Origin: Modestobacter sp. VKM Ac-2985
GTDB lineage: Bacteria; Actinomycetota; Actinomycetes; Mycobacteriales; Geodermatophilaceae
Length of the DNA: 64,000 bases
Direction: 5' to 3'
Assembly (NCBI RefSeq): GCF_026967925.1
Contig: NZ_JAPVBI010000004.1
Location: 38,483 to 102,482 of the forward strand
Shown: positions 9,535-56,589 of the stretch, piece by piece
Layout: every line of letters begins with the position of its first letter
Position numbering within the stretch: the stretch's first letter is position 1
Notes under the pieces: model-generated
What the model was told of the DNA's origin: nothing
Database searches by the model: none
Seen by the model: the letters and a program-made list of their open reading frames with translations, nothing else
Program-made: the position numbers and the translations under genes

Positions 9535-10598
<1,064 letters not shown>

Positions 10599-10602
<4 letters not shown>

Positions 10603-20537: not shown

Positions 20538-20597
20538 GCCATGCTCGTCCGCAGGGCCCCGCTCGACAGCGCGCCCTGCACCAGCAGATCGACCAGC

Positions 20598-20611
20598 GGG
20601 ACCACGGTCCC
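20598..20611. promoter_or_regulatory. short dyad before malate synthase
   Basis: GGGACC-AC-GGTCCC (6+6) lies 15 bases before the glcB ATG in the 88-base glcF-glcB gap. It could be a small hairpin in the leader or an operator; no function is clear. Confidence 0.25.
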
Positions 20612-20625
20612 GGGATGACGGAGAG

Positions 20626-22866: not shown

Positions 22867-22872
22867 CCTGCG

Positions 22873-22902
22873 GCCCGCCGGTCCCCACGGGGACCGGCGG
22901 GC
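22873..22902 (+). terminator. terminator of the glc operon
   Basis: A perfect 14-bp stem (22873-22886 with 22889-22902) has a very tight loop. It starts 6 bases after the glcB stop. Confidence 0.75.
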
Positions 22903-22926
22903 TCCGCACCCAGCCGGACCGACGAC

Positions 22927-22962
22927 GGGGCCGGGCACGGACACCAGTCCGTGCCCGGCCCC
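22927..22962. terminator. bidirectional terminator between glcB and garR
   Basis: A perfect 16-bp stem (22927-22942 with 22947-22962) encloses the 4-base loop ACCA. It lies 5 bases beyond the garR stop on the minus strand and probably serves the convergent garR gene. Confidence 0.8.
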
Positions 22963-22967
22963 GTCCG

Positions 22968-23934: not shown

Positions 23935-23958
23935 TGGCAACCGGTTGTCAGCTACGCT
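23935..23958. promoter_or_regulatory. operator (15/16) and -10 between garR and hydrolase gene
   Basis: TGGCAACCGGTTGTCA at 23935-23950 matches the palindrome TGGCAACCGGTTGCCA at 15 of 16 positions. TACGCT at 23953-23958 is a plausible -10 for the rightward hydrolase gene, so the operator would cover its spacer and -35. It also lies 83 bases upstream of garR and could control both directions. Confidence 0.75.
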
Positions 23959-24089
23959 AGCCGGGAGCACCGGAACCCGCCAGGGTCGCGGGCGGCGAAC
24001 GTCTCGTGGCGTCGGCGGCCGGATCCGGAGCACCCCGGGAGAGCAGCGACGGCAGGTGCCTCGTGGCGGGCGCCGGAGGAGGCAGTGCG

Positions 24090-24872
24090 ATGAGCATCGG
24101 CTACACCGGGGTCCTGGTGACCCGGACGAGCGACCCCTCCGGCGCGGCCGGCACCGTGGTCCTGGTCAACTCGCTGGCCACGACCACGGCGATGTGGGAC
24201 GACGTCGTCCCGGCGCTCGCCGAGCGTTTCGACGTCGTCCGGTTCGACCAGCGGGACCGGGGTGGTCCGGCGGCCCGGGAGCCGTTCTCCCTCGACGACC
24301 TCGTGGACGACGTCGTCGGCGTGCTCGACGAGGTCGGGACGGAGCGGGTGCACCTCGCCGGCATCTCCCTCGGTGGGCTCGTCGCCCTGCGCACCGCCGC
24401 CCGGCGACCCGAGCGGCTGCTGTCCGTCACCGCGATGTGCTGCGCCGCCCGGTTCTCCCGGGAGGTCTGGGTCGACCGGTGCCGGCTCGTGCGGGACGAG
24501 GGCATCGCCCCGATCGTGCCGATGGTCATGGACCGCTGGTTCACCCAGGACTTCCAGGAGCGGCGGCCGGACGTGCTCGCCCGCTACCGGGAGATGCTCG
24601 CGACCACGGACGCCGCGGGGTACGCCCACGCCGGCGACGTCCTGGCCGATGCCGACGTGCGGGACGACCTGCCCCGCATCACGGTGCCCACCCTGGTGGT
24701 CGGCGGCGAGGCGGACACCGCCAACCCGGTCACCGACCAGGAGCTGATCGCCCGTGCCGTGCCCGGGGCGCGGCTGGCGGTCGTCCGGGGGGCGGCGCAC
24801 CTGGCGCCGGTGGCCGAGCCCGCCGAGGTCGCGCGGCTGATCGCCGGTCACGCGACCGCGCACCCCGCCTGA
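24090..24872 (+). CDS. alpha/beta hydrolase, enol-lactonase-like
   Basis: The 260-residue alpha/beta hydrolase has the nucleophile elbow GISLGG, an acid residue region VVGGEADTANPV and His in GAAHLAPVAEP. The overall pattern (VLVNSLATTTAMWDD, FDQRDRGGP) resembles 3-oxoadipate enol-lactonases. No aromatic pathway genes are nearby, so a sugar-acid lactone is an attractive substrate, but that is inference. The ATG at 24090 follows GGAGGC; the open frame extends 28 codons upstream towards the promoter. It is divergent from garR with a shared regulon operator, and convergent with the LacI gene 12 bases away. Confidence 0.8.
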   Translation: MSIGYTGVLVTRTSDPSGAAGTVVLVNSLATTTAMWDDVVPALAERFDVVRFDQRDRGGPAAREPFSLDDLVDDVVGVLDEVGTERVHLAGISLGGLVALRTAARRPERLLSVTAMCCAARFSREVWVDRCRLVRDEGIAPIVPMVMDRWFTQDFQERRPDVLARYREMLATTDAAGYAHAGDVLADADVRDDLPRITVPTLVVGGEADTANPVTDQELIARAVPGARLAVVRGAAHLAPVAEPAEVARLIAGHATAHPA

Positions 24873-24884
24873 CGGGGGCGGGGG

Positions 24885-25949
24885 TCAGCCGCGCGGGGGC
24901 GCGGTGGAGCCGCGGAGCACGAACTCGGTCGCCAGCGGTGTGCGGCGTCCCTCCTCGCCCTTCTCCACGGCCGCGATGAGCCGGCGGGCGGCCTCGTCGC
25001 CGACCAGGCCGAGCGGGGTGCGGATCGTGGTGAGCGGGGGAGAGGTGAAGTCGGAGCCGAAGATGTCGTCGAAGCCGATCACGCTGAGCTCCTCGGGCAC
25101 CCGGACGCCGCCGTCCCGGCAGGCCTTGAGCAGCCCGGTGGCCATGAGGTCGTTGTAGGCGAGCACGGCCGTCGCGCCGGAGTCGCGGATGCTCTGCAGT
25201 GCGGCTTGTCCGCCCTGCAGCGTGGGCTCGCCCGGCCCGATCTCCACGATCGTCATGCCTCGCTCACCGGCAGCCGCGGCGAGCGTGCGGCCGCGCAGTC
25301 GGCTCATCCACGAACCCGAGGGGCCGGCCAGGTAGGCGATCGACCGGTGTCCCTGCTCGGCGAGGTGGTCGAGCGCGGCGCGGATGCCCGGGACGACGTC
25401 CGGGACCACGCCCGGGATGCCACGGACCTTGCGGTTCACCACGAACAGCGGCTTGCGCTCGGCCAGGGCTCGGATGTCGGCGTTGTCCAGCCGGGTGGCG
25501 ACGAGGACGAGGCCGTCGACGGAGGCCAGGAGGCGCTGTGCCGTCTCGTTCTCGAGGTCGGCCGACTCCTGGGACTCGGCGAGGATGAGGATGTAGCCGC
25601 GACCGGCTGCCACCCGTTCGACCCCGCGCACCAGGTCGAAGTACACCGGGTTGGTGATGTCGGACAGGATCAGGCCGACCGTGTGCGTCCGGCCGGTCGG
25701 CAGCGCTCGCGCCATCGGGTTGAGGCGGTAACCGACCGCGTCGGCGACCTCGCGGATCCGCTTCTCGGTGTCGGCGCTCAGTCGCCCGGGGTTGTTCAAC
25801 GCGCGGGAGACGGTCGAGGGACTGACCCCGCTCAGGCGGGCGACGTCGTAGATCGTGACGGGTCCGCGCGCGCGGCCGGCCGACGTCCCGGTGCCGTTCT
25901 GTCTCTCCGTCACACCCGTCCGTCCCGGCCGCTCGGGCCCGCACGACAC
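24885..25949 (-). CDS. LacI-family regulator of the uronate/hydroxyacid regulon (1)
   Basis: A LacI/GalR repressor of 354 residues from the GTG at 25949; a GTG at 25913 (VTERQNG) would shorten it by 12 residues and neither has a strong ribosome binding site. The HTH is TIYDVARLSGVSPSTVSRAL near residue 32, with hinge region NPMARALPTGRTHTVG, followed by a sugar-binding-type domain. Its HTH resembles that of the LacI gene at 53814 (TIYDVARAAGVAPSTVSRAF). It is divergent from a 2-hydroxyacid dehydrogenase gene with two regulon operators between them, so it is a strong candidate for reading those sites. Effector unknown; a uronate or aldonate is plausible. Confidence 0.88.
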   Translation of the reverse strand: MSCGPERPGRTGVTERQNGTGTSAGRARGPVTIYDVARLSGVSPSTVSRALNNPGRLSADTEKRIREVADAVGYRLNPMARALPTGRTHTVGLILSDITNPVYFDLVRGVERVAAGRGYILILAESQESADLENETAQRLLASVDGLVLVATRLDNADIRALAERKPLFVVNRKVRGIPGVVPDVVPGIRAALDHLAEQGHRSIAYLAGPSGSWMSRLRGRTLAAAAGERGMTIVEIGPGEPTLQGGQAALQSIRDSGATAVLAYNDLMATGLLKACRDGGVRVPEELSVIGFDDIFGSDFTSPPLTTIRTPLGLVGDEAARRLIAAVEKGEEGRRTPLATEFVLRGSTAPPRG

Positions 25950-26093: not shown

Positions 26094-26109
26094 TGGCAAC
26101 CGGTTGACA
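26094..26109. promoter_or_regulatory. regulon operator before the 2-hydroxyacid dehydrogenase gene
   Basis: TGGCAACCGGTTGACA matches the palindrome at 15 of 16. It lies 92 bases before the dehydrogenase start. A further half-site (GTTGCCA) follows near 26122-26128. Confidence 0.72.
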
Positions 26110-26200
26110 GGCTCGTGTGACAGTTGCCACACTCGGCTTCGGACATCCCGTTCCGGCGTTCCGTGCCGGTGGGGAACCCGAGTCAGAGGAGTCGTCCCCG

Positions 26201-27208
26201 GTGGATGCTGGTCCAGGCCCGCGCGACATCCGGACCGTCCTCGCGACGGTCTTCTTCCAGCCCGACGAGGTGGAACAACTGCGTCGCGCCTTCGCGCCGG
26301 CGGAGTTCCTCCACCTCAGCCCAGGCGACACCGAGGGCATCGCCCGTGCGCTGGAGAAGGCCGACGTGGCGGTGCTCTGGGGTGACCTCGACGAACGTCA
26401 CCTGGCGGCGCCGGAGCTCCGCTGGGTCCACTGCGACCACGCCGGCCTCACCCGGTCGGCCCGGCCGGAGGTCTTCGAGAAGGGCCTCGTCGTCACCGGG
26501 TCCGCCGGTCGCTCCGCCCCGGCGCTGGCCCAGCACGCCTTCTACTTCGCCCTGGCGCTCAGCTTCGACGCGCGCGGGCTCCTGGAGATGCAGTCCACCC
26601 GTCAGTGGCGGGGTCCTGTCGGCTACGAGAACCGGCTGGCGCTGTACGGCAAGACCCTGGGGATCGTCGGGTTCGGCAAGACCGGCCGGGCGATGGCGCT
26701 GCTGGGCAAGGCCTTCGGCATGCGGGTGATCGCCTACCGCCGCCGGGCCGACGAGGACGCTCCCGGCGTGGACCGGCTGCTCGCCACGGATGCCGGGGAC
26801 ACCCTGGACCCGCTGCTCGAGGAGTCCGACGTGATCATGCTCGCCGCCCACCTGAGCGACGAGACGCACCACCTCTTCTCCACCGAGCAGTTCGAGCGGA
26901 TGAAGTCCAGCGCCTACCTCATCAACCTGGCCCGCGGCGGCATCGTCGACCAGGACGCGCTGGTGGCGGCGCTGCACAGCGGCGCCATCGCCGGCGCCGG
27001 CCTCGACGTCGCCGACCCCGAGCCGCTGCCGCCGGAGTCCTCGCTGTGGGACGCGCCCAACGTCCTGCTCACCCCGCACATGACCCCCCGACTGCCCGAC
27101 CGCACCGCCCGGTCGATCGAGGTGATCGTGGAGAACATCCGGCGGTACCGCAGCGGCGAGCCGCTGCTGAACGCGCTCACCCCGCGCGACGTCTACACCC
27201 CCCGCTAG
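26201..27208 (+). CDS. D-isomer-specific 2-hydroxyacid dehydrogenase
   Basis: The 335-residue NAD(P)-dependent enzyme has the fold of phosphoglycerate and hydroxypyruvate reductases. The cofactor motif is GIVGFGKTGRAMA, with catalytic Arg in INLARGGIVD, Glu in the DVADPEPLPPESSLW segment and His in LLTPHMT. It would interconvert a 2-oxoacid and a D-2-hydroxyacid, perhaps hydroxypyruvate/glycerate or glyoxylate/glycolate. The GTG at 26201 was chosen because GAGGAG lies 9 bases upstream and the conserved region starts there; a longer open frame from 26117 would begin close to the operator. The binding lipoprotein gene follows 67 bases later. Confidence 0.87.
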   Translation: MDAGPGPRDIRTVLATVFFQPDEVEQLRRAFAPAEFLHLSPGDTEGIARALEKADVAVLWGDLDERHLAAPELRWVHCDHAGLTRSARPEVFEKGLVVTGSAGRSAPALAQHAFYFALALSFDARGLLEMQSTRQWRGPVGYENRLALYGKTLGIVGFGKTGRAMALLGKAFGMRVIAYRRRADEDAPGVDRLLATDAGDTLDPLLEESDVIMLAAHLSDETHHLFSTEQFERMKSSAYLINLARGGIVDQDALVAALHSGAIAGAGLDVADPEPLPPESSLWDAPNVLLTPHMTPRLPDRTARSIEVIVENIRRYRSGEPLLNALTPRDVYTPR

Positions 27209-28887: not shown

Positions 28888-28903
28888 TCGCAACGGGTTG
28901 CCA
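28888..28903. promoter_or_regulatory. regulon operator upstream of permease operon (distal)
   Basis: TCGCAACGGGTTGCCA matches TGGCAACCGGTTGCCA at 14 of 16. Its centre is 79 bases from the proximal site at 28967. Confidence 0.6.
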
Positions 28904-39024: not shown

Positions 39025-39040
39025 TGGCATCCGGTTGCCA
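39025..39040. promoter_or_regulatory. regulon operator upstream of the glycosidase-like gene
   Basis: TGGCATCCGGTTGCCA matches TGGCAACCGGTTGCCA at 15 of 16, with only the central-left A changed to T. It lies 146 bases upstream of the minus-strand gene. Confidence 0.75.
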
Positions 39041-39164: not shown

Positions 39165-39294
39165 GTGAGCTGCGCCACTGCTTGGTTGAGGTCAGCCAGA
39201 GGGCTCCGGTGTGCGGATGCAGATCCGTGGCACCGCGGGTCCTCCCGCGTCCGGCACGTCCGCGCCGGTAGGTGCGCATCACAAGGGAGTGACC

Positions 39295-44846: not shown

Positions 44847-46640
44847 ATGCTCAAGCCCCGCGCCACCCCGACCCGTGAACTGGTGAACCTCGACGGCCTG
44901 TGGCGCTTCGGCATCGCCGACCGCGTGCAGGACGAGCCGTGGACCGGCCGCCTGGAGACCACGCTGGAGGCGGCGGTGCCGGCCAGCTACAACGACCTGT
45001 TCGCCGACCGGGCGATCCGGGACCACGTCGGGTGGGCCTGGTACCAGCGCTCGGTGCGGGTGCCCCGGGGGTGGGCCGGCGAGCGGGTGCTGCTGCGGTT
45101 GGACTCGGCCACCCACGAGGGCCGGGTGTACGTCGACGGGCACCTCGTCGCCGAGCACGTGGGCGGGTACACCCCGTTCGAGGCCGACATCACCGACGTC
45201 GTCCGGGCGGGGGAGGAGTTCCGGCTCACCGTGGGGGTCAACAACGAGCTGACCAACGTGACGCTCCCGCCGGGCACCCTCACCGTGGAGCAGTCCGGCC
45301 GGCGCAAGCAGACCTACCTGCACGACTTCTTCAACTACGCGGGGCTCGCGCGGTCGGTGTGGCTCTACAGCCGCCCCGCCACGCACGTCGAGGACGTCAC
45401 GGTCGTCACCGGTGTGGACGGCGCGGCGGGCACCGTCGACTACGCCGTCCGCACCAGTGCGCCGGCCGACGTCCGGGTGCGCGCACTGGACGCCACGGGC
45501 GCCGAGGTCGCCGCCGGCACCGGCGCGGAGGGCAGCCTGCGGATCGAGGACGTCACGCTGTGGCAGCCCGGCGCGGCCCACCTCTACGACCTCGTGGTCG
45601 AGGTCGTCGACGGCGAGACGGTCGTCGACAGCTACACCGAGCCCTTCGGCGTCCGCACCGTCGAGGTCCGCGGCACGCAGTTCCTGATCAACGGCGAGCC
45701 GTTCTACTTCACCGGTTTCGGCAAGCACGAGGACACGCCCATCCGCGGCAAGGGCCACGACGACGCCTACCTGGTGCACGACTTCCAGCTGATGGACTGG
45801 ATCGGCGCCAACTCCTTCCGCACCTCGCACTACCCCTACGCGGAGGAGGTGCTGGAGTTCGCCGACCGGCACGGCATCGTCGTCATCGACGAGACCTCGG
45901 CCGTCGGCCTCAACCTCGCCGTCACCGGCGGGCTCGCCGGCGCGGTCACCACGCCGACCTTCTCCCCGGAGACCTTCAACGACCAGACGCAGGCGGCGCA
46001 CGCCCAGCACCTCCGCGAGCTGATCGCGCGGGACAAGAACCACCCCAGCGTGGTGATGTGGTGCATCACCAACGAGCCCTCGTCCAACGAGGAGGGCGCC
46101 CGGGAGTACTTCGAGCCCCTCGTGCAGCTCACCCGCGAGCTGGACCCGACCCGCCCGGTCACCTACGCCGTGGTCATGTTCGCCAACCCCGGCAACGACC
46201 GCATCGCCGACCTGTTCGACGTGATCTCGCTGAACCGCTACTACGGCTGGTACGTCGCCAACGGCGACCTCGCCACGGCCGAGGACTACCTGGAGCGGGA
46301 CCTGCGGGGCTGGGCGGCGAAGTACGACAAGCCCATCCTGATGACCGAGTACGGCGCGGACACGATGCAGGGGCTGCACTCCCTGTGGGACATCCCGTGG
46401 ACCGAGGAGTACCAGCGGGACTTCCTCGAGATGCACCACCGGGTGTTCGACCGGGTGGAGGCGTTCGTCGGCGAGCAGATCTGGAACTTCGCCGACTTCC
46501 AGACCACCCGGGCGATCCACCGGGTCGACGGCAACAAGAAGGGCGTGTTCACCCGCGACCGGCGCCCCAAGACCGCCGCGCACGAGCTGCGGCGCCGGTG
46601 GCTCGGGCTGCAGAACCGCAAGCCGGGCACGCAGCGGTGA
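44847..46640 (+). CDS. uidA: beta-glucuronidase (GH2)
   Basis: The 597-residue protein has the length and domains of bacterial beta-glucuronidase. The acid/base is Glu410 in CITNEPSSNEEG and the nucleophile Glu501 in MTEYGADTMQG. The Asn563-x-Lys565 motif in GNKKGVF matches the residues that bind the carboxylate of glucuronic acid in known enzymes, which separates it from beta-galactosidases. It releases D-glucuronate, the substrate of UxaC encoded 4 kb away. The ATG at 44847 follows AGGAGGAG; the open frame runs 26 codons upstream into arginine-rich sequence. It overlaps the MFS gene by 4 bases. Confidence 0.95.
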   Translation: MLKPRATPTRELVNLDGLWRFGIADRVQDEPWTGRLETTLEAAVPASYNDLFADRAIRDHVGWAWYQRSVRVPRGWAGERVLLRLDSATHEGRVYVDGHLVAEHVGGYTPFEADITDVVRAGEEFRLTVGVNNELTNVTLPPGTLTVEQSGRRKQTYLHDFFNYAGLARSVWLYSRPATHVEDVTVVTGVDGAAGTVDYAVRTSAPADVRVRALDATGAEVAAGTGAEGSLRIEDVTLWQPGAAHLYDLVVEVVDGETVVDSYTEPFGVRTVEVRGTQFLINGEPFYFTGFGKHEDTPIRGKGHDDAYLVHDFQLMDWIGANSFRTSHYPYAEEVLEFADRHGIVVIDETSAVGLNLAVTGGLAGAVTTPTFSPETFNDQTQAAHAQHLRELIARDKNHPSVVMWCITNEPSSNEEGAREYFEPLVQLTRELDPTRPVTYAVVMFANPGNDRIADLFDVISLNRYYGWYVANGDLATAEDYLERDLRGWAAKYDKPILMTEYGADTMQGLHSLWDIPWTEEYQRDFLEMHHRVFDRVEAFVGEQIWNFADFQTTRAIHRVDGNKKGVFTRDRRPKTAAHELRRRWLGLQNRKPGTQR

Positions 46641-47971
46641 GCGTCCCCGCCGGCGGGGACCCGGTCGTGCCGGTGGTCGGGGGCTCCCCGCAGCTCACCG
46701 CCGTCCCGGCCACCCCGCCGGCGGGGCCCCGGCAGCCGACCGGCCTGGGTCGAGCACGCCTGGTGCTGCTGGTGCTGGCCGGCTTCGGCTCCTCGATGGC
46801 GCTGCTCGGGCCGATGGCCTACTCCCTGGCCGTCCGGGTGCAGCAGCTGGCCCCCGGCCAGCCCGAGGTGCTCGGGTTCGTCCTCGGCGGTGGCTCGGTC
46901 GTCTCGCTGCTCGCTGCCCCGCTGATCGGGACGTTCAGCGACCGCACGCGCAGCCGGTTGGGCCGGCGCCGGCCCTGGCTGCTGATCGGCACCACGGTCG
47001 GACTGGCCGGCTTGGTGACCATGGCCGCGGCGGACGGCCTGGCCGTGCTGACCGCGGGCTGGGTGCTGACCAGCCTCGGCTGGAGCACGGCGAACGGCGC
47101 CCTGACCAACATGCAGGCCGACCACCTCCTGCCCCGCCAGCGCGGCAAGCTCGCCGGGTACACCGGGTTCACCTCCCAGCTCGCCGCGGTGGTCGGCATC
47201 CTGCTCGCCGGCACGGTGGCGATCGACGGCCCGCTGCTGTTCCTGCTGCCCGGGCTGACCGGCGCGGTGTTCGTGCTGCCGTTCCTGGTGCTGCGGAGGG
47301 AGGAGGACTCCCGGGGGTTCCCACTGCCCGGCCGCCTGACCCTCGGCGGGCTGCTGCGTTCCTTCACGTTCAGCCCCCGGGCGCACCCGGACTTCGCCTG
47401 GAACTGGCTCGGCCGCTTCTCGGTGTTCCTGGGAGTCTCGCTGACCACGACGTTCAGCACCTACTTCTACGCCGCACGGCTGGACGTGGGCCTCGCGGAG
47501 GTGGCCGGGTTCGTCGCGGTGACCGCGTCGGTGGGCATCGTGGGCAGCTTCGTGGGGTCCCTCGGCGCGGGCTGGCTGTCCGATCGGCTGGGCCGCCGCC
47601 GGCCCTTCGTCGTCGTCGCCACCGTGATCCTGGCCTCCGGGGCGACCGTGCTGGCCTTCGCCTCCTCCTTCGCCACCCTGCTCACCGGCACCGCCCTCAC
47701 CTCCACGGGCATCGCCGTGTTCGCCGCGGTGAACCAGGCGATCGTGCTCGACGTGCTCCCCGAGCGGGACACCGCCGCCGGGCGGTACATGGCGATCTTC
47801 ACCTTCAGCCAGCGGGTGCCGAGCAGCCTGGCGCCGTTCCTCTCGCCGGTGGTCATCACCATCGGTGCCACGGCCGGCGGGGCCAACTACACCCTGCTCT
47901 ACCTGCTGGCCGGCGCGCTGGCTCTCATCGGTGGCCTGGTCATCGGGCTCCGGGTGCGCGGCGTCCGCTGA
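46637..47971 (+). CDS. MFS transporter, probable glycoside/glucuronide carrier
   Basis: The 444-residue protein has about 12 membrane segments. The MFS loop motif appears in both halves (FSDRTRSRLGRRRPWLLIG and LSDRLGRRRPFVVVA), as in sugar:cation symporter-like MFS proteins. A Pro-rich N-terminal tail of about 35 residues precedes the first segment. The GTG start overlaps the uidA stop as GTGA, so the carrier is co-translated with beta-glucuronidase and probably imports a glucuronide or glycoside. It is convergent with the gluconokinase gene, with 13 bases between them and no terminator. Confidence 0.88.
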   Translation: MSVPAGGDPVVPVVGGSPQLTAVPATPPAGPRQPTGLGRARLVLLVLAGFGSSMALLGPMAYSLAVRVQQLAPGQPEVLGFVLGGGSVVSLLAAPLIGTFSDRTRSRLGRRRPWLLIGTTVGLAGLVTMAAADGLAVLTAGWVLTSLGWSTANGALTNMQADHLLPRQRGKLAGYTGFTSQLAAVVGILLAGTVAIDGPLLFLLPGLTGAVFVLPFLVLRREEDSRGFPLPGRLTLGGLLRSFTFSPRAHPDFAWNWLGRFSVFLGVSLTTTFSTYFYAARLDVGLAEVAGFVAVTASVGIVGSFVGSLGAGWLSDRLGRRRPFVVVATVILASGATVLAFASSFATLLTGTALTSTGIAVFAAVNQAIVLDVLPERDTAAGRYMAIFTFSQRVPSSLAPFLSPVVITIGATAGGANYTLLYLLAGALALIGGLVIGLRVRGVR

Positions 47972-47984
47972 GCCCGGGTGTCTC

Positions 47985-49532
47985 TCAGCGCGGGAGAGCG
48001 GACGAGGCCGCGGTCACCCGGCCGAGGCCCTCGACCAGGGCGGGGAGGCGTGCGCGCAGGTCGGCGAGGACGGCGACGTGGTCGGCCGTGGCCTCCACCG
48101 GCGGCGGCTCGTCCTCCGGGGGCGCGAGGAGGGCGGGCGCGTCCTCGAGGTGGGCACTCTGGCCCAGGGCGTACAGCGCCAGCGCGGCCGCGCCGAGCGC
48201 ACCGCCGCCGGCATCGGACCCGACGTGGACCGGACGCCCCAGGGCGGCGGCGACCGTGCTGCGCCACAGCGGCGCCCGGAAGGCGCCGCCGGTCACCCGG
48301 ACCGTGGTGATCGGGGCGACCGCGTCCAGGACGTCCAGCACCACCGCCAGCTGGGTGGCCACGCCCTCCACGGCGGCGCGGACCAGGTGGGCGCGGGTGT
48401 GCCCGCGGCGCAGCCCCAGGAAGGCGCCGGGGATGTCCGGGTCCCACAGCGGCGCCCGCTCGGCCACCAGGTAGGGGAGCATGACCAGCCCGTCGCTGCC
48501 GGCCGGTGCCTGCGCGGCGAGCTCGAGCAGGGCCTCGTCGTCCCCGTCCGGGCCGGTGAGGTCCGGCGCCAGCGCCGAGCCCGCCCACCGGACCACGTGC
48601 GCGCCGTTGCTGAGGGCGCCGCCGGTCACCCAGTGGTCGGCGGTCAGGGCGTAGCAGAACAGCCGGCCCGCCGGGTCGGTCGTCGGCCGGTCGACGACGG
48701 TGCGCACGGCACCGCTGGTGCCGAGGTTCAGACCCGCGGTGCCGGGCCGCATCGCGCCGGTGCCGAGGTTGCCCAGCGGCCCGTCCGCGGCCCCGACGAC
48801 GACCGGGGTCCCGGGGCGCAGGCCGGTGCGGTCGGCGGCAGCGGAGGAGGAACTGAGGATGGCGGTGGTGGGCAGCACCTCGGCCAGCTGTTCCGCGCCC
48901 ACCGACGCCAGCGCCAGGGCATCGGGGTGCCAGTCACCGGTGGTCAGGTCGAGCAGCCCCGTGCCCGAGGCCGAGGACAGCTCGGTCACCAGGCAGTCGG
49001 TCAGCGCCAGCAGCACGTACTCCTTGAGCCCCACCCACCAGCGGGCGGCCGCGCAGGTGCCCGGGTCGTGCTCGGCGAACCACATGAGCTTGGTCAGCGG
49101 GGACATCGGGTGCACCGGGGTGCCGGTGACCCGCTGCAGCTCCGTCGCGCGGCCGGACGCCCGGAGCGCGTGCGCCTGCGCGGTCGCCCGCGCGTCCGCC
49201 CAGGTCACCAGCGGCGTGAGCGGGCGATGATGGCGGTCCAGGGCGATCAGCCCGTGCATCGCGGTGCCGACCGACACGGCGGTCACCGGAGCCCCCGCCG
49301 TGGCGGCGATGCACTCCCGCAGCGCCGCGAGCACGCCGGCCACGACGGCGTCGGGGTCCTGCACCTGCCAGCCGGCCCGCGGCTCGGTGAGCGGGTACTC
49401 GCGCAGCGCCGTGGCCTGCCATCCGCTGCCAGGGGAGAAGGCGACGGCCTTGACCGCCGTCGTCCCGACGTCCAGGCCGATGACGACGTCACCCGGAGGG
49501 CCGCTGGCGCCGCCGGGGACGCCTGGCGTCAC
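47985..49532 (-). CDS. gntK: gluconokinase, FGGY type
   Basis: The 515-residue FGGY kinase starts VVIGLDVGTTAVKAVAF and carries TPVHPMSPLTKLMWF, a motif typical of FGGY gluconokinases and absent from XylB here. Other motifs are TWADARA, GAADGPLGNLGTGA and VTGGAFRAPLWR. It would convert D-gluconate to 6-phosphogluconate for Gnd, encoded at 55108. The GTG start overlaps the upstream reductase gene by 4 bases, making it the last gene of uxaC-reductase-gntK. A kinase for gluconate beside the first two steps of glucuronate catabolism is unusual and central to the proposed bypass. Confidence 0.88.
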   Translation of the reverse strand: MTPGVPGGASGPPGDVVIGLDVGTTAVKAVAFSPGSGWQATALREYPLTEPRAGWQVQDPDAVVAGVLAALRECIAATAGAPVTAVSVGTAMHGLIALDRHHRPLTPLVTWADARATAQAHALRASGRATELQRVTGTPVHPMSPLTKLMWFAEHDPGTCAAARWWVGLKEYVLLALTDCLVTELSSASGTGLLDLTTGDWHPDALALASVGAEQLAEVLPTTAILSSSSAAADRTGLRPGTPVVVGAADGPLGNLGTGAMRPGTAGLNLGTSGAVRTVVDRPTTDPAGRLFCYALTADHWVTGGALSNGAHVVRWAGSALAPDLTGPDGDDEALLELAAQAPAGSDGLVMLPYLVAERAPLWDPDIPGAFLGLRRGHTRAHLVRAAVEGVATQLAVVLDVLDAVAPITTVRVTGGAFRAPLWRSTVAAALGRPVHVGSDAGGGALGAAALALYALGQSAHLEDAPALLAPPEDEPPPVEATADHVAVLADLRARLPALVEGLGRVTAASSALPR

Positions 49533-50896
49533 CGCCGGCCCGACAGGTCGGCTGCCCGGTCCCGCACGGCCCCGAGCAGTTCCCGGTCATCGGCCAGTGC
49601 GGGGTCCAGCGCGGAGAGCACGCGAGGCGCGGCCTCCGCCAGCTCCCCGGCTGCCAGGGCGCGGAACTCGTCGGCGCGGACGTCCTTGACCGGCGCCCCG
49701 GCGCCCCGCAGGTGCAGCAGCCACGCGGCCAGCACCGTCACGGCAGACTCCGGGAGGCGCCCGGCGGTCCGCTCCCACCGGAGGACCGGCAGCAACCGGA
49801 CCGGCAGCTTCTGCGAGCCGTCGGTGGCTATCTGCGCGAGCGAGTGCCGGATCCGCGGGTTGGCGAAACGCTGGACGAGCGCGGCGCAGTAGGCCGCGAC
49901 CTCCTCGGGGGACACGCTCAGGTGCGGCGTGCACACGTCCCACCAGCCGTGCAGCAGCGCGAGGCACCACTCGTCGGCCGCTGCCTCGGCGACCGTGGCG
50001 TGCCCGCGCACGGAGCCGACGTACGCGAGCAGCGAGTGACCGCCGTTGAGCAGCCACAGCTTGCGCTGCTCGAAGGGGGCGACGTCGTCGGTCAGCACGG
50101 CCCCCGCGTCCTCCCAGGCCGGCCGCCCGCCGGGGAACCGGCCGGAGACGACCCACTCGCTGAAGGGCTCGGTGACCACCGGCGCGAGGTCCTCGGTGCC
50201 GGTGGCCGCGCGGACGGTGTCCCGGTCGGCGGCGGTGGGCTCGGGCGTGATCCGGTCGACCATGGTGGTCGCCGTCGTCACCTGGGCAGCGACCCAGTCG
50301 GGCAGGGTCGGGTCCACGCCCGCGGCGAGGGCGAGCACGACCTCGGTGAGGGCGGCCCCGTTGTCGGGGAGGTTGTCACAGGGCACGAGCGCCAGCGGCC
50401 CCGCGTCGGCGGCCCGCCGGGCCAGCAGGCCGGCGACGATCCGGGCGGGCACCGAGCCCACCGGGGCACGTGGGTCCCGGCGCAGCGCGGCGAGGTCGGC
50501 GGCGACCTGCGGGTGGTCGGTGTCCAGGCCGCCGGCCGGCCGCCGGTGGTAGCCGGCCTCGGTGACCGTGGTGGTGAGCACCCGGACCGCCGGGTCGGCG
50601 AGCAGGGCCAGCCACGCGTCCGAGTCCGCGGCGGCGTGGGCGCGGACCACCGACCGCACGACCTCGAACCGGTCGCCGTCCGGGCCGCGGGTGACGAGCG
50701 TGTAGAGCCCGTCCTGCGTGGTGAGCGCCGTGGCCAGGTCGGGCCGCCGACCGGTGAAGGCCGCGATGCCCCACGGCTCGCCGGCGCGATCGGTGTACCA
50801 GGCCTGATGGGCGCGGAAGAAGCTGCCCAGTCCGAGGTGGACGGCGCGCACCGGGGGCGGCGCGCCGGGTCCGCGACGCAGCGGGGAGGCCGTCAC
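49529..50896 (-). CDS. uxuB: mannitol dehydrogenase family, probable fructuronate reductase
   Basis: This 455-residue member of the long-chain polyol dehydrogenase family has the N-terminal nucleotide site VHLGLGSFFRAHQAWY, the GIAAFTGRRPDLATAL segment, VPCDNLPDNG, and the catalytic Lys...His pattern in RKLWLLNGGHSLLAY. Family members reduce fructuronate to D-mannonate, tagaturonate to altronate, or oxidise mannitol. Its overlap with uxaC (GTGA) and with the kinase points to fructuronate reductase. The open frame extends upstream only as a shadow of uxaC. Tagaturonate reductase remains possible because UxaC also isomerises galacturonate. Confidence 0.85.
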   Translation of the reverse strand: MTASPLRRGPGAPPPVRAVHLGLGSFFRAHQAWYTDRAGEPWGIAAFTGRRPDLATALTTQDGLYTLVTRGPDGDRFEVVRSVVRAHAAADSDAWLALLADPAVRVLTTTVTEAGYHRRPAGGLDTDHPQVAADLAALRRDPRAPVGSVPARIVAGLLARRAADAGPLALVPCDNLPDNGAALTEVVLALAAGVDPTLPDWVAAQVTTATTMVDRITPEPTAADRDTVRAATGTEDLAPVVTEPFSEWVVSGRFPGGRPAWEDAGAVLTDDVAPFEQRKLWLLNGGHSLLAYVGSVRGHATVAEAAADEWCLALLHGWWDVCTPHLSVSPEEVAAYCAALVQRFANPRIRHSLAQIATDGSQKLPVRLLPVLRWERTAGRLPESAVTVLAAWLLHLRGAGAPVKDVRADEFRALAAGELAEAAPRVLSALDPALADDRELLGAVRDRAADLSGRR

Positions 50897-52308
50897 AGCT
50901 TGAAGACCTCTCGTGGGCGACGGTCGACGAGGTCGACGGCGATCTCCCGCGCCTCGTCCTCCGGCAGCCGGTGTTCGGCGACGAGCCGGGCCAGGTAGCC
51001 GCAGTCCAGCCGCCGGGACATGTCGTGCCGGGCCGGGATCGAGCAGAAGGCGCGGGTGTCGTCGATGAAGCCCGACGTCCGCCGGAAGCCGGCGGACTCG
51101 GTCACCGCGCCCCGGAACCGGCGGACGGCGTCCGGCGCGTCGAGGAACCACCAGGGAGCGCCGACGTAGACCGACGGGTAGAAGCCGGCCAGCGGACCCA
51201 GCTCGCGGGAGAACGCCGTCTCGTCGAGCGTGAAGAGGACGAGGTGGAAGCCCGGGTGGACGCCGAAGCGCTCCAGGAGCGGCCGCAGCGGGTCGGTGAA
51301 GTCGATGCGCAGCGGGATGTCGTGGCCGGTGTCCGGGCCGAAGGCGGAGAGGGTGGGGCCGTGGTGGTTGCGGCGCACGCCCGGGTGGATGGTCATCACC
51401 AGGCCGTCGTCGCAGGACATCCGGGCCATCTCGAACAACATGTGCCGGCGCAGCGCGACGCCTTCGCCGGGTGACGCCGTCCCGGCCAGGGCCGCCCGGT
51501 AGACCCGCTCCGCCTCGGCTGCGGGCAGCGGCTCGGTGCCGACGTCCTCGTGGCTGTGGTCGGCCGACGTCGCGCCGTGTGCGCGGAAGTGCGCCCGGCG
51601 CTGCTCCATGGCCTCGACCCAGCCGGCGTAGTTCCCGGTGTCGACGCCACTGACCGCGCCCAGCCGGGCCACTGCGTCGGCCCAGCCGGGGGCCGCCGCC
51701 TCCAGGTACCGGTCGGGGCGGAAGGTCGGGACGACCCGGCCGGCGAAGGCCGGGTCGGCCGCCAGCTGGGCGTGGGCGGACAGGTCGTCGCAGGGGTCGT
51801 CGGTCGTCGCCAGCACCTCGATGCCGAAGCGCTCGAACAGCGCCCGCGGACGGTAGGCGTCCTTGGTCAGCCGCTCGGCCACCTGGTCGTAGATCGAGTC
51901 CGCCGTCGCCACGGAAGGGTGGACGGTCACGTCGAACACCTCGGCGAGCTCCGACTCCAGCCAGTAGCGGGTCGAGGTGCCCGCCAGGACCGGCCAGTGC
52001 GCGCAGAGCTCTCGCCACACCTGCCTGGCCTCCGCCTCCGGGAGCGTCCCGTGGCCGATCCCGAGCGCGGACAGCGGGACGCCGCTGGCGTGCAGCAGGC
52101 GGGTGACGTAGTGGTCCGGGGTGACGAAGAGCGCGGCCGGGTCCGTGAAGGGGACGTCGTCGGCCAGTGCGCGGGGGTCCACGTGGCCGTGCGGCGAGAG
52201 GATCGGCAGGTCACGGACCGCCTCGTACAACGTCCGGGCGATCGCCCGGGTGCCGGGGTCTGCGGGGAAGAGCCGGTCCGGGTGCCGGTCGAGGGCGGGG
52301 GCGGACAT
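50893..52308 (-). CDS. uxaC: glucuronate isomerase
   Basis: The 471-residue protein has the uronate isomerase fold: SPHGHVDPRALADD near residue 38 (metal-binding histidines), LATTDDPCDDLSAH, VVPTFRPDRYLE, IHPGVRRNH and SGFIDDTRAFCSIPARHD near the C-terminus. It converts D-glucuronate to D-fructuronate (and D-galacturonate to D-tagaturonate). The ATG at 52308 has only a weak ribosome binding site. A 15/16 operator lies 30 bases upstream, where it would block the promoter. It heads the uxaC-uxuB-gntK operon, divergent from the LarA-family gene. Confidence 0.95.
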   Translation of the reverse strand: MSAPALDRHPDRLFPADPGTRAIARTLYEAVRDLPILSPHGHVDPRALADDVPFTDPAALFVTPDHYVTRLLHASGVPLSALGIGHGTLPEAEARQVWRELCAHWPVLAGTSTRYWLESELAEVFDVTVHPSVATADSIYDQVAERLTKDAYRPRALFERFGIEVLATTDDPCDDLSAHAQLAADPAFAGRVVPTFRPDRYLEAAAPGWADAVARLGAVSGVDTGNYAGWVEAMEQRRAHFRAHGATSADHSHEDVGTEPLPAAEAERVYRAALAGTASPGEGVALRRHMLFEMARMSCDDGLVMTIHPGVRRNHHGPTLSAFGPDTGHDIPLRIDFTDPLRPLLERFGVHPGFHLVLFTLDETAFSRELGPLAGFYPSVYVGAPWWFLDAPDAVRRFRGAVTESAGFRRTSGFIDDTRAFCSIPARHDMSRRLDCGYLARLVAEHRLPEDEAREIAVDLVDRRPREVFKL

Positions 52309-52337
52309 GTGCTCATGGTGTGCAACGGATCACTCGC

Positions 52338-52353
52338 TGGGAACCGGTTGCCA
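52338..52353. promoter_or_regulatory. regulon operator between uxaC and the LarA-family gene
   Basis: TGGGAACCGGTTGCCA matches TGGCAACCGGTTGCCA at 15 of 16. It is the only such site in the 130-base divergent region and so could control both the uxaC operon and the LarA-family gene, which supports a shared pathway. Confidence 0.78.
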
Positions 52354-52438
52354 CGTGTTGCCGTCCGCGACCCGCCCAGCTGCGGTGGGTCGCGCGGGCC
52401 GCTTGCCACCGCCGCCGCAGCCGGCGCATGGTGCCGTC

Positions 52439-53731
52439 ATGACGCAGGTGTCCGACCCCGAGTCCCCGGCAGCCGGCCGCGTCGCCACCGTGGGCGGTGC
52501 GGACCAGGTGCTCGAGTCCGACGAGGTGGCCGGCTTCCTCGCCGACTGCCTGGCGGCCGAGGACCTGGACGGGCGCAGTGTGTGCGTGATCGTCCCGGAC
52601 GCCACCCGCAGCTGCCCGCTGCCGATGCTGCTGTCGGCGGTGCACGGGGCGCTGGTCGGGCGGGTGAGCCGGCTGACCGTGCTCATCGCGCTCGGCACCC
52701 ACGCGGCCATGACCGAGGCCCAGCTGGCCCGGCACCTCGGCCACCCTGCCGGTGACCTGGCCGCCCGCTATCCGGGCATGACCGTGCTGAACCACGAGTG
52801 GTCCGACCCGGACACGTTCGTCTCGCTGGGCACCATCCCGGCCGAACGGATCGCCGAGCTGTCGGAGGGGCGGCTGCACGAGAGCGTGGACGTGCGGCTC
52901 AACCGCGCCGTCGTCGAGCACGACGTGGCGCTGGTGCTCGGGCCGGTGTTCCCGCACGAGGTGGTGGGGTTCTCCGGTGGCAACAAGTACTTCTTCCCGG
53001 GGGTCGCCGGCCAGGAGATCATCGACCTCTCCCACTGGCTCGGCGCGCTGATCAGCAGCGCGGAGATCATCGGCACCCGCGGCACCACGCCGGTGCGCGC
53101 CCTCATCGACGAGGCCGCCGCTCTCGTCCCCGCGCAGCGGCTGGCCGTCTGCGTGGTGGCCCAGTCCGGTACGGGCGCGCTGCACTCGGTGGCCTTCGGT
53201 GACCCGCAGGCCGCCTGGGCAGCTGCCGCGGACGTCTCCGCCCAGGTGCACGTCCGCTACCTCGACGCCCCGGTGCGCCGGGTGGTGTCGGTCATCCCGG
53301 AGAAGTACGACGACATGTGGACGGCGGCGAAGGGCTTCTACAAGGTCGAGCCGATCGTCGCCGACGGCGGCGAGGTCGTGATCCTCGCTCCGCACATCAC
53401 CACGATCTCCGCCATGCACCCGGAGATCGAGGAGATCGGCTACCACTGCCGGGACTACTTCGTGCAGCAGTGGGAGCGCTTCGCCCACCTGCACTGGGGG
53501 GTGCTGGCGCACTCCACCCACCTGCGCGGGACGGGCACCTACGACGCCGCGACCGGGGTCGAGCGCCCACGCGTGCGGGTCACGCTCGCCACCGGGATCC
53601 CCGAGGACGTCGTCCGGAAGGCCGACCTGGACCACCTGGACCCAGCAGAGGTCGACCTCGGCGCCGCCGCGGACGACCCGGAGACCCTGCTGGTGCCCGA
53701 GGCCGGGGAGGTGCTGTTCCGGCTGCGCTGA
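52439..53731 (+). CDS. LarA-family nickel-dependent hydroxyacid racemase/epimerase
   Basis: The 430-residue protein matches lactate racemase LarA in length and key residues. Lys183 in GGNKYFFPG (covalent pincer-nucleotide site), His173 in FPHEVVGFSGG and His199 in DLSHW fall one position from Lys184, His174 and His200 of the Lactiplantibacillus enzyme; His88 in GTHAAM is a further active-site candidate. LarA homologues act on several 2-hydroxyacids, and D-gluconate 2-epimerase is one known activity. Divergence from uxaC with a shared operator favours an aldonate over lactate, perhaps D-mannonate/D-gluconate. The ATG lacks a clear ribosome binding site. No larB or larC is in the window; a larE-like start is at 63855. 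Confidence 0.85.
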   Translation: MTQVSDPESPAAGRVATVGGADQVLESDEVAGFLADCLAAEDLDGRSVCVIVPDATRSCPLPMLLSAVHGALVGRVSRLTVLIALGTHAAMTEAQLARHLGHPAGDLAARYPGMTVLNHEWSDPDTFVSLGTIPAERIAELSEGRLHESVDVRLNRAVVEHDVALVLGPVFPHEVVGFSGGNKYFFPGVAGQEIIDLSHWLGALISSAEIIGTRGTTPVRALIDEAAALVPAQRLAVCVVAQSGTGALHSVAFGDPQAAWAAAADVSAQVHVRYLDAPVRRVVSVIPEKYDDMWTAAKGFYKVEPIVADGGEVVILAPHITTISAMHPEIEEIGYHCRDYFVQQWERFAHLHWGVLAHSTHLRGTGTYDAATGVERPRVRVTLATGIPEDVVRKADLDHLDPAEVDLGAAADDPETLLVPEAGEVLFRLR

Positions 53732-53813
53732 CCCCACGCCACGACGGCAGGAAGCGGCAGGTGTCCCTGCGCGTTCTCTGCCGGCCGGACAACGGGGCAG
53801 GACTCCTGAGCGG

Positions 53814-54884
53814 TCAGCTCGGGACGTCGGTGTCGGTGGTCGGGGGAGCGGGGTGCACGGGGATGCTGCGGCGACGTCTGCGGCGCCCGGTGGAGCCGCG
53901 CACGATGAGGCGGACGGGCAGCACAGCGGACAGGATCGTGCCCCGCTGCCCGCTGGCCACCAGCGTCATCAGGTGGCGGGTCGCCGTCGCGCCCTCCGTG
54001 TGCAGCGGCGCCGCGACCGTGGTCAGGCCGGGCGTGACCAGGCCGGCGACGGAGATGTTGTCGAAGCCGACCACGCTGACGTCCCGCGGGACCCGGACGC
54101 CGTGCGCCGTGAGGCCACGGACGAGGCCGATCGCGAGTTGGTCGTTGAACGCGATGACCGCGGAGGGCAGCCGCGCGGACAGCTCCTCCGCCGCCCGCGT
54201 GCCGCCGGCCAGGTCCGGGGCGAACGGTCCCACTCGGCGGGCCCGCAACGACAACGCAGCGGTCGACTCGAGCACGGCGCGCCATCGGGAGCCGTCGGCC
54301 CAGGACGCCTCCGGGCCCGAGAGGTAGGTGATCGACTGGTGCCCCAGGTCGGCGAGGTGCTGCACGGCGAGCCGGATGCCGCGGGCGTTGTCCGGGACGA
54401 CCGAGGGCACGTCGACGATGGTCCGGTTGAGCACGATCACCGGCTTCTGCTTGGAGAGCATGCGGATCGCCGAGTCGGACAACCGCGTACCGGCGAGCAG
54501 GACGCCGTCGACCAGCGGCAGCGTGCGTTCCAGCGTCGACCGCTCGAGCCGCTCCGACTCGTGCGCGTCGATGAGCAGCAGGGCGTAGCCGTCGGCGGTG
54601 GCCGCTGCCTGGGCGCCGTGGATGATCTCCGCGTAGAAGGGGTTCGCCACGTCCGACACCACCAGCGCCAGCAGCCGTGTCCGGGAGATCGCCCGCGCAC
54701 GAGTCGGGGGCACGGTCCGGTAGCCCAGCTCGTCGGCGACCCGGCGGATGCGTGCCGCGGTCTCGGAGTTGACCCGGCCGGGGCGGGAGAAGGCCCGGGA
54801 GACGGTCGACGGTGCCACCCCCGCTGCCCGTGCGACGTCGTAGATGGTGACGGGCTGGCGGCCGTCGTCGACAGTGCCCGTCAT
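53814..54884 (-). CDS. LacI-family regulator of the uronate/hydroxyacid regulon (2)
   Basis: The 356-residue LacI/GalR repressor has HTH TIYDVARAAGVAPSTVSRAF near residue 12 and a full effector domain (VVSDVANPFYAEIIHGA, SVVGFDNISVAG), ending in an Arg-rich, Pro-rich tail. The HTH is close to that of the LacI gene at 24885, so both may bind the same palindrome. The ATG at 54884 was chosen; the next in-frame start upstream is a TTG inside the operator. It is divergent from gnd with a 14/16 operator between, consistent with autoregulation and gnd control. Effector unknown; gluconate or 6-phosphogluconate would fit its position. Confidence 0.88.
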   Translation of the reverse strand: MTGTVDDGRQPVTIYDVARAAGVAPSTVSRAFSRPGRVNSETAARIRRVADELGYRTVPPTRARAISRTRLLALVVSDVANPFYAEIIHGAQAAATADGYALLLIDAHESERLERSTLERTLPLVDGVLLAGTRLSDSAIRMLSKQKPVIVLNRTIVDVPSVVPDNARGIRLAVQHLADLGHQSITYLSGPEASWADGSRWRAVLESTAALSLRARRVGPFAPDLAGGTRAAEELSARLPSAVIAFNDQLAIGLVRGLTAHGVRVPRDVSVVGFDNISVAGLVTPGLTTVAAPLHTEGATATRHLMTLVASGQRGTILSAVLPVRLIVRGSTGRRRRRRSIPVHPAPPTTDTDVPS

Positions 54885-54920
54885 GGCCGGACCCCGGGGG
54901 AGTGCGGTCGTGCGAAGGTC

Positions 54921-54948
54921 TGGCAACCGATGGCCACGCCGCTATGCT
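54921..54948. promoter_or_regulatory. regulon operator and -10 before gnd
   Basis: TGGCAACCGATGGCCA at 54921-54936 matches the palindrome at 14 of 16. TATGCT at 54943-54948 is a good -10 for gnd. The operator-to--10 arrangement copies that at 23935-23958, so repression by occlusion is likely. Confidence 0.72.
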
Positions 54949-55107
54949 AAGCCCCCGGCCCCGGCGGACCGCGCTCGCGCGCGGGCTGACCGAGGCTCTC
55001 CCCGAGCTCCCCGACACCTGTCGGACCGGCGTTGTGCCGACCCGGGCCGGAGCTTCCCCACACCGGTCCCATCCCGGCCGGTCCCACCCGCGACAGGCAG
55101 GACGACG

Positions 55108-56589
55108 ATGAGCGACGCAGCAGCGCCGGACGGCGGACGAGAGACCGGCGGCCGGGCCAACATCGGAGTGGTGGGCCTGGCCGTCATGGGCTCGAACCTG
55201 GCCCGCAACCTCGCCAGCCGGGCGGGCAACACGGTGGCGGTGTGGAACCGCTCGCCGGAGCGGACGCGGCTCCTGGTGGCCGAGCACCCGGAGGCGGGGT
55301 TCGTCGCGGCGGAGTCGATCGACGACTTCGTCGCGTCCCTGGCGCGGCCACGGACCGCGATCATCATGGTGCAGGCCGGGGCCGGGACCGATGCGGTCAT
55401 CGCGCAGCTCGCCGCACGGTTCGAGCCGGGCGACATCATCGTCGACGGCGGCAACGCCAACTTCGTCGACACCATCCGCCGCGAGCGCGAGCTGCGGGAG
55501 CGCGGGCTGGACTTCGTCGGTGCCGGGATCTCCGGCGGCGAGGAGGGGGCGCTGCGGGGGCCGTCCATCATGCCGGGCGGGTCGGCCGAGGCCTACCGCA
55601 CGCTCGGGCCCATCCTGGCCTCGATCGCGGCGGTCGCCGAGGGGGAGCCCTGCGTCACCCATGTGGGCACCGACGGCGCCGGCCACTTCGTCAAGATGAT
55701 CCACAACGGCATCGAGTACGCCGACATGCAGCTCATCGCCGAGTCCTTCGACCTGCTGCGCCGGGTGGGCGGGCACGACGTGAAGGCCATCGCCGACGTC
55801 TTCGCCGCCTGGAACCGGGGGGACCTCGAGTCCTACCTCATCGAGATCACCGCCGAGGTGCTCCGTCAGACCGACGACCGCACCGGCCGTCCCCTCGTGG
55901 ACGTCATCGTGGACGAGGCCGGGTCCAAGGGCACCGGCGTGTGGACGGTGCAGAACGCGGTCGGGCTCGGCGTCCCGGTCTCGGGCATCGGCGAGGCCGT
56001 CTTCGCCCGCGCGGTGTCGAGCAAGTCCGAGCAGCGGGCGGCGGTCCGTCGGGTCGTGCACAGCCGCCCTGCGGTGCAGGAGGCACCCGAGAGCTTCGAG
56101 GACGACGTGCGCGCCGCTCTCCACGCCTCCAAGGTGGTCGCCTACGCGCAGGGCTTCGACGCCATCGTCGCCGGCGCACGGCAGTACGGCTGGGACATCG
56201 ACCTGGGCGCGGTCGCCACGATCTGGCGGGGTGGGTGCATCATCCGGGCCCGCTTCCTCAACCGCATCGTCGAGGCCTACGCCCGCAACCCCGAGCTGGA
56301 GACCCTGCTCGCGGACGACTACTTCGCCGAGGCCGTCGCTCGCGGCGAGGACGCGTGGCGCCGCATCGTCTCGATCGCGGCGCTGTCCGGTGTGCCGGCG
56401 CCCGGCTTCTCGTCCGCGCTGGCCTACTACGACGCGCTCTGCTCCGAGCGTCTGCCGGCCGCGCTCATCCAGGGTCAGCGGGACTTCTTCGGGGCGCACA
56501 CCTACCGGCGGATCGACGCCGAGGGCGTCTTCCACACGCTGTGGTCCGCCGACCGCAGCGAGATCGCCACGGAGCCGTCCAGCCACTGA
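55108..56589 (+). CDS. gnd: 6-phosphogluconate dehydrogenase (decarboxylating)
   Basis: The 493-residue protein is full length for the long GndA form. The cofactor site is GVVGLAVMGSNLARNLA, with VDGGNANFVDT, GISGGEEGALRGPSIMPGG, HFVKMIHNGIEYADMQLIAE (catalytic Lys) and DEAGSKGTGVWT. It converts 6-phosphogluconate to ribulose-5-phosphate, CO2 and NADPH. The ATG at 55108 follows CAGGACGA; the open frame extends upstream through the promoter. Its regulon operator links it to gluconokinase and uxaC rather than to general pentose phosphate control, so another gnd may exist elsewhere. Confidence 0.95.
   Translation: MSDAAAPDGGRETGGRANIGVVGLAVMGSNLARNLASRAGNTVAVWNRSPERTRLLVAEHPEAGFVAAESIDDFVASLARPRTAIIMVQAGAGTDAVIAQLAARFEPGDIIVDGGNANFVDTIRRERELRERGLDFVGAGISGGEEGALRGPSIMPGGSAEAYRTLGPILASIAAVAEGEPCVTHVGTDGAGHFVKMIHNGIEYADMQLIAESFDLLRRVGGHDVKAIADVFAAWNRGDLESYLIEITAEVLRQTDDRTGRPLVDVIVDEAGSKGTGVWTVQNAVGLGVPVSGIGEAVFARAVSSKSEQRAAVRRVVHSRPAVQEAPESFEDDVRAALHASKVVAYAQGFDAIVAGARQYGWDIDLGAVATIWRGGCIIRARFLNRIVEAYARNPELETLLADDYFAEAVARGEDAWRRIVSIAALSGVPAPGFSSALAYYDALCSERLPAALIQGQRDFFGAHTYRRIDAEGVFHTLWSADRSEIATEPSSH

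Follow-up and report, generated by a model that had tools for sequence, protein, structure and literature searches.

A LarA-family gene in Modestobacter sp. VKM Ac-2985 sits in the middle of a sugar-acid cluster that probably forms a stand-alone route for glucuronate catabolism. The cluster lies in a stretch of 64,000 nucleotides (the window) of contig NZ_JAPVBI010000004.1. In the route that we consider probable, D-gluconate would arise from D-mannonate through inversion at C2 by the LarA homologue; a kinase and a dehydrogenase would then carry it on to ribulose 5-phosphate. An earlier note on this DNA had proposed such a LarA-type epimerisation, and three observations now support it: the genome has no match to UxuA or to 2-keto-3-deoxy-6-phosphogluconate (KDPG) aldolase, the protein is close to the published epimerase GntE2, and the same gene neighbours recur in many genomes.

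The cluster is built from two divergent halves (Table 1). On the minus strand, uxaC, a reductase gene and an FGGY kinase gene follow one another with each neighbouring pair sharing 4 bases, and the LarA-family gene diverges from uxaC across a 130-bp spacer that contains an operator-like site; the coordinates bear out what the earlier note had said of both the overlaps and the divergence across one operator. Beyond the 3' end of the LarA-family gene is a convergent lacI gene, from which gnd in turn diverges. At the opposite end, past the kinase gene, genes for a beta-glucuronidase (uidA) and a major facilitator superfamily (MFS) transporter adjoin the cluster. UxaC and Gnd score above their curated cut-offs. 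The reductase, the kinase and the LarA homologue belong to the right superfamilies and score below every equivalog cut-off, so that we infer their substrates. Compared with solved structures, the kinase is closest to the gluconate kinase 3gbt (281 bits; the next match has 158). The reductase matches models for D-arabinitol dehydrogenase (262 bits, cut-off 600), fructuronate reductase (NF011611; 217, cut-off 603) and tagaturonate reductase (160, cut-off 359), and it likely converts fructuronate to D-mannonate. The uidA product would free glucuronate, and the transporter, which probably starts at a GTG overlapping the uidA stop, likely imports a glucuronide or uronate.

By both sequence and fold, the LarA homologue is nearer to GntE2, a proven D-mannonate/D-gluconate 2-epimerase, than to lactate or malate racemases; its identity to GntE2 of Thermotoga maritima is about 32%. 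The residues listed in PMC7583248 for catalysis and for binding of the nickel-pincer nucleotide (D54, R57, H88, H173, K183, H199 and K298) are invariant in 40 of 40 aligned sequences. Equally conserved are E174-V175 and W294, which correspond to the hexonate-group signature of E-V/S in a loop and W in helix 11; the helix-14 A/V part of the signature has no certain mapping. Where PMC7583248 describes the E-V/S and W signature, it ascribes it to LarAH groups 18-20 only, and the inactive Frankia protein LarAH14 is therefore unlikely to be of the same group. The alignment leaves out L062, L066, L075, L077, L083, L084, L086, L089, L095 and L046, in which the tblastn match to the LarA homologue (10001-11230) holds one in-frame stop codon. 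The structure predicted from these 40 sequences has a mean confidence (pLDDT) of 92.6; an earlier model from 16 close sequences reached 58.4 and was not used for the fold search. Searching the protein collection with a profile of the LarA homologue brought in only further members of the same family. As for cofactor maturation, larC in the same genome scores above its cut-off and larB just under it (172 bits, cut-off 175).

The earlier note had seen neither UxuA nor KDPG aldolase in the window, and this absence extends to the whole genome, which is rated 100% complete. UxuA (PF03786) and KDPG aldolase (PF01081) each have 0 matches, whereas among 14 named control genomes the former is matched in 5 and the latter in 8. 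The note had also asked whether a co-regulated uxuA-kdgK-kdgA set lay elsewhere; the genome search found no UxuA, no KDPG aldolase and no ManD call, and KDG (2-keto-3-deoxygluconate) kinase was not searched for. The single member of the IlvD/Edd family is, in the fragment scanned, best named dihydroxy-acid dehydratase. None of seven enolase-superfamily matches was called ManD, and the three for which that model is listed reach 92-146 of 550 bits; the seven include a talarate/galactarate dehydratase (703 bits, cut-off 500), a glucarate dehydratase-like protein (812, cut-off 828.7), MenC, enolase, and two proteins (L100 and L101) that reach no cut-off. Of the Ashwell glucuronate pathway, then, the genome has UxaC and lacks UxuA and KDPG aldolase.

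A comparison across the class shows the same pattern of exclusion among genomes with UxaC. In an even sample of 393 genomes of the class, the LarA homologue (counted at E up to 1e-30) occurs in 18, UxaC in 59, UxuA in 22, LarC in 82, and KDPG aldolase in 207. UxaC is found in 15 of the 18 genomes with the LarA homologue compared to 44 of 375 without it, and LarC in 17 of 18 compared to 65 of 375. Within the 59 UxaC genomes, those with the LarA homologue never have UxuA (0/15 vs 12/44 without it, P 0.026), seldom have KDPG aldolase (5/15 vs 40/44, P 3e-5), and nearly always have LarC (14/15 vs 2/44, P 1e-10); these Fisher P values ignore kinship, the 15 genomes representing seven families with six genomes from one of them. 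None of the eight genomes in which uxaC and the LarA homologue diverge within 350 bp has UxuA or KDPG aldolase, and every one of them has LarC. The Corynebacterium glutamicum control has the same profile as the Modestobacter genome, with matches to UxaC and LarC and none to UxuA or KDPG aldolase; Lar_N had no match in this control although a LarA homologue has been published from it.

The neighbours of the gene point the same way. We examined 80 titled loci, the best 80 of at least 568, with flanks of up to 10 kb (shorter on some contigs), and counted a gene as a neighbour of the LarA homologue if its match reached 80 bits; the loci are not independent, as a few species or genomes are represented by two loci and the class sample shares some of them. 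The reductase is present at 47 loci, uxaC at 42, and one or the other at 49. Genes for cofactor maturation are almost as frequent (larB 34, larC 29, larE 38, any lar gene 40), as is the LacI family (39), a broad family in which some matches are distant. The FGGY kinase is found at 15 loci, at three of them with only 27-29% identity, uidA at 16, two of them weak (L047, L050), and gnd at 10, seven of which keep the order of LarA homologue, reversed lacI and gnd seen in the window. At six loci a GntK-type gluconokinase of another superfamily replaces the FGGY kinase; all four that we scanned pass TIGR01313, and in L074 the gene begins 69 bp past the LarA homologue. Of 23 genomes of the genus, 5 have an orthologue, and in four relatives uidA, uxaC and the reductase gene lie beside it in the main locus. 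One relative has, in addition, another LarA homologue (66% identical) at a further locus, L017 (G004:C1 3033000-3052900), where it is accompanied by a separate set of uxaC, reductase and FGGY genes.

The two halves of the cluster also appear to share an operator. We derived the palindrome TGGCAACCGGTTGCCA by eye from the sites in the uxaC/LarA-homologue and lacI/gnd spacers; all other matches are independent of this derivation. Allowing up to 3 mismatches, the window has 9 sites where 0.25 are expected. With up to 2 mismatches the genome holds 6 such places, which all fall inside one 31-kb part of the window, and 0 for a reversed control pattern; since all six lie in the window, they mark a local regulon. 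The site is also kept in relatives: among 97 of their loci there are 37 homologous divergent spacers, and 23 of these contain it with up to 4 mismatches, compared to 1.35% of mononucleotide shuffles. The earlier note had placed the same operator at gnd, and a site with 2 mismatches is indeed present in the lacI/gnd spacer. The site is upstream of both genes, at 171 bp from the ATG of gnd (55108) and 37 bp from the probable ATG of lacI (54884), so that lacI may be its target no less than gnd. The product of this lacI gene likely represses the cluster, and a second LacI-family protein, whose recognition helix is nearly identical, may bind the same operators.

Taken together, these observations suggest the following sequence of steps. 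Beta-glucuronidase and the transporter would provide glucuronate, which UxaC would isomerize to fructuronate, and the overlapping reductase would reduce fructuronate to D-mannonate. The LarA homologue, with its predicted nickel-pincer nucleotide, would then turn D-mannonate into D-gluconate, as suggested by its homology to GntE2, its fold and its gene context. The FGGY kinase would yield 6-phosphogluconate, and Gnd ribulose 5-phosphate, CO2 and NADPH; neither KDG nor KDPG would be formed along the way. Both halves would be controlled together by a repressor of the LacI type at the operator that they share. Such a route would be redox-neutral because the reductase uses one reduced cofactor and Gnd gives one back, and because the lower half of the Ashwell pathway is broken by the absence of UxuA and KDPG aldolase, UxaC-dependent growth on glucuronate would need nickel.

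Several observations weigh against this assignment. Neither the reductase nor the kinase attains an equivalog cut-off, and NF052594, the NCBIfam model for the group 18 putative hexonate epimerase, gives the LarA homologue 175.1 bits, under its cut-off of 500, though it is the top-scoring model of the library. Over all 393 genomes, neither UxuA (P 0.61) nor KDPG aldolase (P 0.48) differs significantly with the presence of the LarA homologue, and 8 of the 18 genomes that carry the homologue have KDPG aldolase. Three of these 18 are without UxaC, with the reductase beside the gene in all three, and in five neither uxaC nor the reductase is found in the stretch read. One genome of 1.5 Mb (G309, L129) has a homologue with 48% identity and no match to LarC. 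In the Modestobacter genome itself, a search of about 220 kb with homologues as queries (L018, L113-L119, L137, L138 and the window) did not turn up larE, and no genome-wide larE search was made; an oxidative uronate, glucarate or aldarate route may also exist there. Among the 80 loci, 18 lack all seven partners (uxaC, reductase, uidA, larB, larC, FGGY kinase and gnd), including L074 with its GntK gene, and eight of the 18 are from Kribbella. The one Kribbella locus that we scanned, L037, has no uronate context and is adjoined by oxygenase-like genes and cystathionine beta-synthase. The Kribbella orthologues, in L037 and seven other loci, are about 70% identical and stand without the uronate genes sought.

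The kinetics of the known enzymes raise a further objection. For D-mannonate, PMC7583248 lists KM values of 120 for GntE1 and 17 for GntE2. Values this high make another substrate possible and speak against epimerisation as the first step. We take their unit to be millimolar.

A phosphorylated substrate would suit these values, and the strongest alternative, albeit an unlikely one, is that the FGGY kinase acts first, on D-mannonate, and that the LarA homologue then converts the resulting 6-phospho-D-mannonate to 6-phosphogluconate. Both activities occur in cell extracts of Lactobacillus suebicus, where PMC6978723 reports that mannonate is phosphorylated first and describes the genes as unidentified, and the FGGY kinase remains below the gluconokinase cut-off (372 vs 648.55 bits). 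GntE2, in contrast, takes unphosphorylated D-mannonate in vitro (PMC7583248). Moreover, a GntK-type kinase stands in for the FGGY kinase at six loci, and GntK of E. coli is reported to be unable to use D-mannonate (cited in PMC6978723), which together favour epimerisation first. On balance, it is more likely that epimerisation precedes phosphorylation.

It is far less likely that another dehydratase, from the enolase superfamily or, for example, an altronate dehydratase, bears the main flux and leaves the LarA homologue a side or salvage reaction. L100 and L101 reach no cut-off, and the genome searches covered neither UxaA, KDG kinase nor KDG aldolases, which leaves some room for this view. 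The low ManD scores, the lack of a KDPG aldolase match in the genome and the exclusion pattern among the UxaC genomes of the class all argue against it. Epimerisation of another uronic or aldaric acid, such as glucarate/mannarate, is less probable still. PMC7583248 raises it for group 19, to which C. glutamicum GntE1 belongs, and the Modestobacter genome does hold glucarate dehydratase-like, talarate/galactarate dehydratase and KdgD genes. But KdgD (397 bits, cut-off 374) and the aldarate dehydratases that it adjoins are on another contig (G000:C3 413-417 kb, L114), and the LarA-family gene sits with uxaC, the reductase, the likely gluconokinase and gnd. Finally, the name under which most of these homologues are shown in databases, nickel-dependent lactate racemase or lactate racemase domain-containing protein, fits the presence of a Lar_N domain and is almost certainly wrong here: the lactate racemase model NF033504 gives 73.7 bits (cut-off 460), solved LarA-type lactate racemases only 24-28 bits and a broad-spectrum one 41.5, and a second LarA homologue in the same genome (C3) scores far better on Lar_N (178 vs 81 bits).

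The remaining four operator places, which the earlier note did not mention, precede other genes of the same island; the note was likewise silent on the second lacI gene and on the adjoining beta-glucuronidase and transporter genes. Between 23935 and 41737 the operator also heads genes for a D-2-hydroxyacid dehydrogenase, a dipeptide-type ABC (ATP-binding cassette) transporter and a second solute-binding protein, and close to these sites are a GHL6 protein and an 877-residue protein weakly similar to alpha-galacturonidase. This spread suggests a larger regulon for uronic glycosides. The stretch 16394-23852 groups genes resembling those for the glycolate oxidase subunits GlcD and GlcF with a gene for malate synthase G (1001 bits, cut-off 565) and one similar to tartronate-semialdehyde reductase.

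Table 1 Features of the cluster and its operators. Coordinates are positions in the 64-kb window, and + and - give the strand.
Feature	Position	Strand	Evidence and remarks
Operator	23935-23950	.	1 mismatch; between genes 22968-23852 and 24006-24872
Second LacI-family gene	24885-25949	-	recognition helix nearly identical to that of the LacI at 53814-54884
Operator	26094-26109	.	1 mismatch; before 26117-27208 (D-2-hydroxyacid dehydrogenase)
Operator	28888-28903	.	2 mismatches; before ABC genes from 29162
Operator	39025-39040	.	1 mismatch; before solute-binding protein gene at 39211
uidA, beta-glucuronidase (glycoside hydrolase family GH2)	44847-46640 (approximate)	+	NF007538 899 bits, cut-off 544; syntenic in L013-L016
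MFS sugar transporter	46637-47971	+	PF07690 99 bits on 46640-47971; kept in L013, L014
FGGY kinase, likely gluconokinase	47985-49532	-	TIGR01314 371.9 bits, best model, below cut-off 648.55
Mannitol-dehydrogenase-family reductase	49529-50896	-	PF01232/PF08125
uxaC, glucuronate isomerase	50893-52308	-	NF002794 546 bits, cut-off 387
Operator TGGGAACCGGTTGCCA, uxaC/LarA-homologue spacer	52338-52353	.	1 mismatch to TGGCAACCGGTTGCCA
LarA-family protein, predicted nickel-pincer D-mannonate/D-gluconate 2-epimerase (GntE-like)	52439-53731	+	
LacI-family regulator	53814-54884	-	PF00356/PF13377; alternative TTG start 54926
Second operator TGGCAACCGATGGCCA, lacI/gnd divergent spacer	54921-54936	.	2 mismatches to TGGCAACCGGTTGCCA
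gnd, 6-phosphogluconate dehydrogenase	55108-56589	+	NF006765 697 bits, cut-off 413 (scanned from 55105)

We think there is a reasonable, if far from secure, case that the same holds for many Actinomycetota: that their UxaC-dependent glucuronate route runs wholly through a nickel-pincer enzyme, without a dehydratase, KDG or KDPG; that it feeds the pentose phosphate pathway in a redox-neutral manner and makes growth strictly nickel-dependent; and that many so-called lactate racemases are this epimerase, made with their own larB, larC and larE. If so, what has been proposed as a side route in a hyperthermophile becomes the sole way in which a sizeable number of actinobacteria degrade hexuronates through UxaC, the use of glucuronides is tied to nickel, and a widespread annotation needs correction. 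The nickel-pincer cofactor would also gain a clear catabolic role in actinobacteria, in a redox-neutral module leading from glucuronate to the pentose phosphate pathway.

The idea of the route is itself not new. For the use of galacturonate by T. maritima, Rodionova 2012 proposed that mannonate is converted to gluconate, which then enters the pentose phosphate pathway (as described in PMC6978723 and PMC3750489), and Desguin 2020 showed the interconversion of D-mannonate and D-gluconate in vitro with GntE2 (PMC7583248). In the open-access literature that we searched, with subscription papers outside its scope, we recognised no description of a mannonate-gluconate route in actinobacteria. As far as these searches go, what is new is a stand-alone actinobacterial version for glucuronate, without UxuA and KDPG aldolase and with the cofactor genes nearby in many relatives.

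The canonical Ashwell pathway (UxaC, UxuB, UxuA, KdgK and KdgA) has its first two steps in common with the proposed route; of its later enzymes, the Modestobacter genome lacks UxuA and KDPG aldolase. A close parallel is GntE2 of T. maritima (LarAH20, 4NAR), encoded in the UxaR-regulated gnd-uxaRED-gntEK genes, where a LarA-type epimerase is likewise co-regulated with a reductase, a gluconokinase and gnd. There, galacturonate or pectin is used through UxaE under a GntR-type regulator, with a complete kdgA-kdgK-uxuB-uxuA operon alongside, as PMC3750489 describes; here, in contrast, UxuA and KDPG aldolase are absent, entry is by UxaC and beta-glucuronidase, the regulator is of the LacI type, and protein identity is about 32%. 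GntE1 of C. glutamicum (LarAH19), which we compared by its description in PMC7583248, is a LarA homologue that likewise comes from an actinobacterium; it shows gluconate 2-epimerase activity, its gene lies in a uronic-acid context, and its native substrate is doubted there on account of the high KM. Finally, the L. suebicus route through mannonate kinase and 6-phosphomannonate 2-epimerase likewise joins the upper reactions of the isomerase pathway to 6-phosphogluconate, and differs, by the account in PMC6978723, in its galacturonate substrate, in phosphorylating first and in using phosphoketolase afterwards. The Modestobacter cluster offers a testable choice between epimerising first, as in Thermotoga, and phosphorylating first, as in L. 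suebicus.

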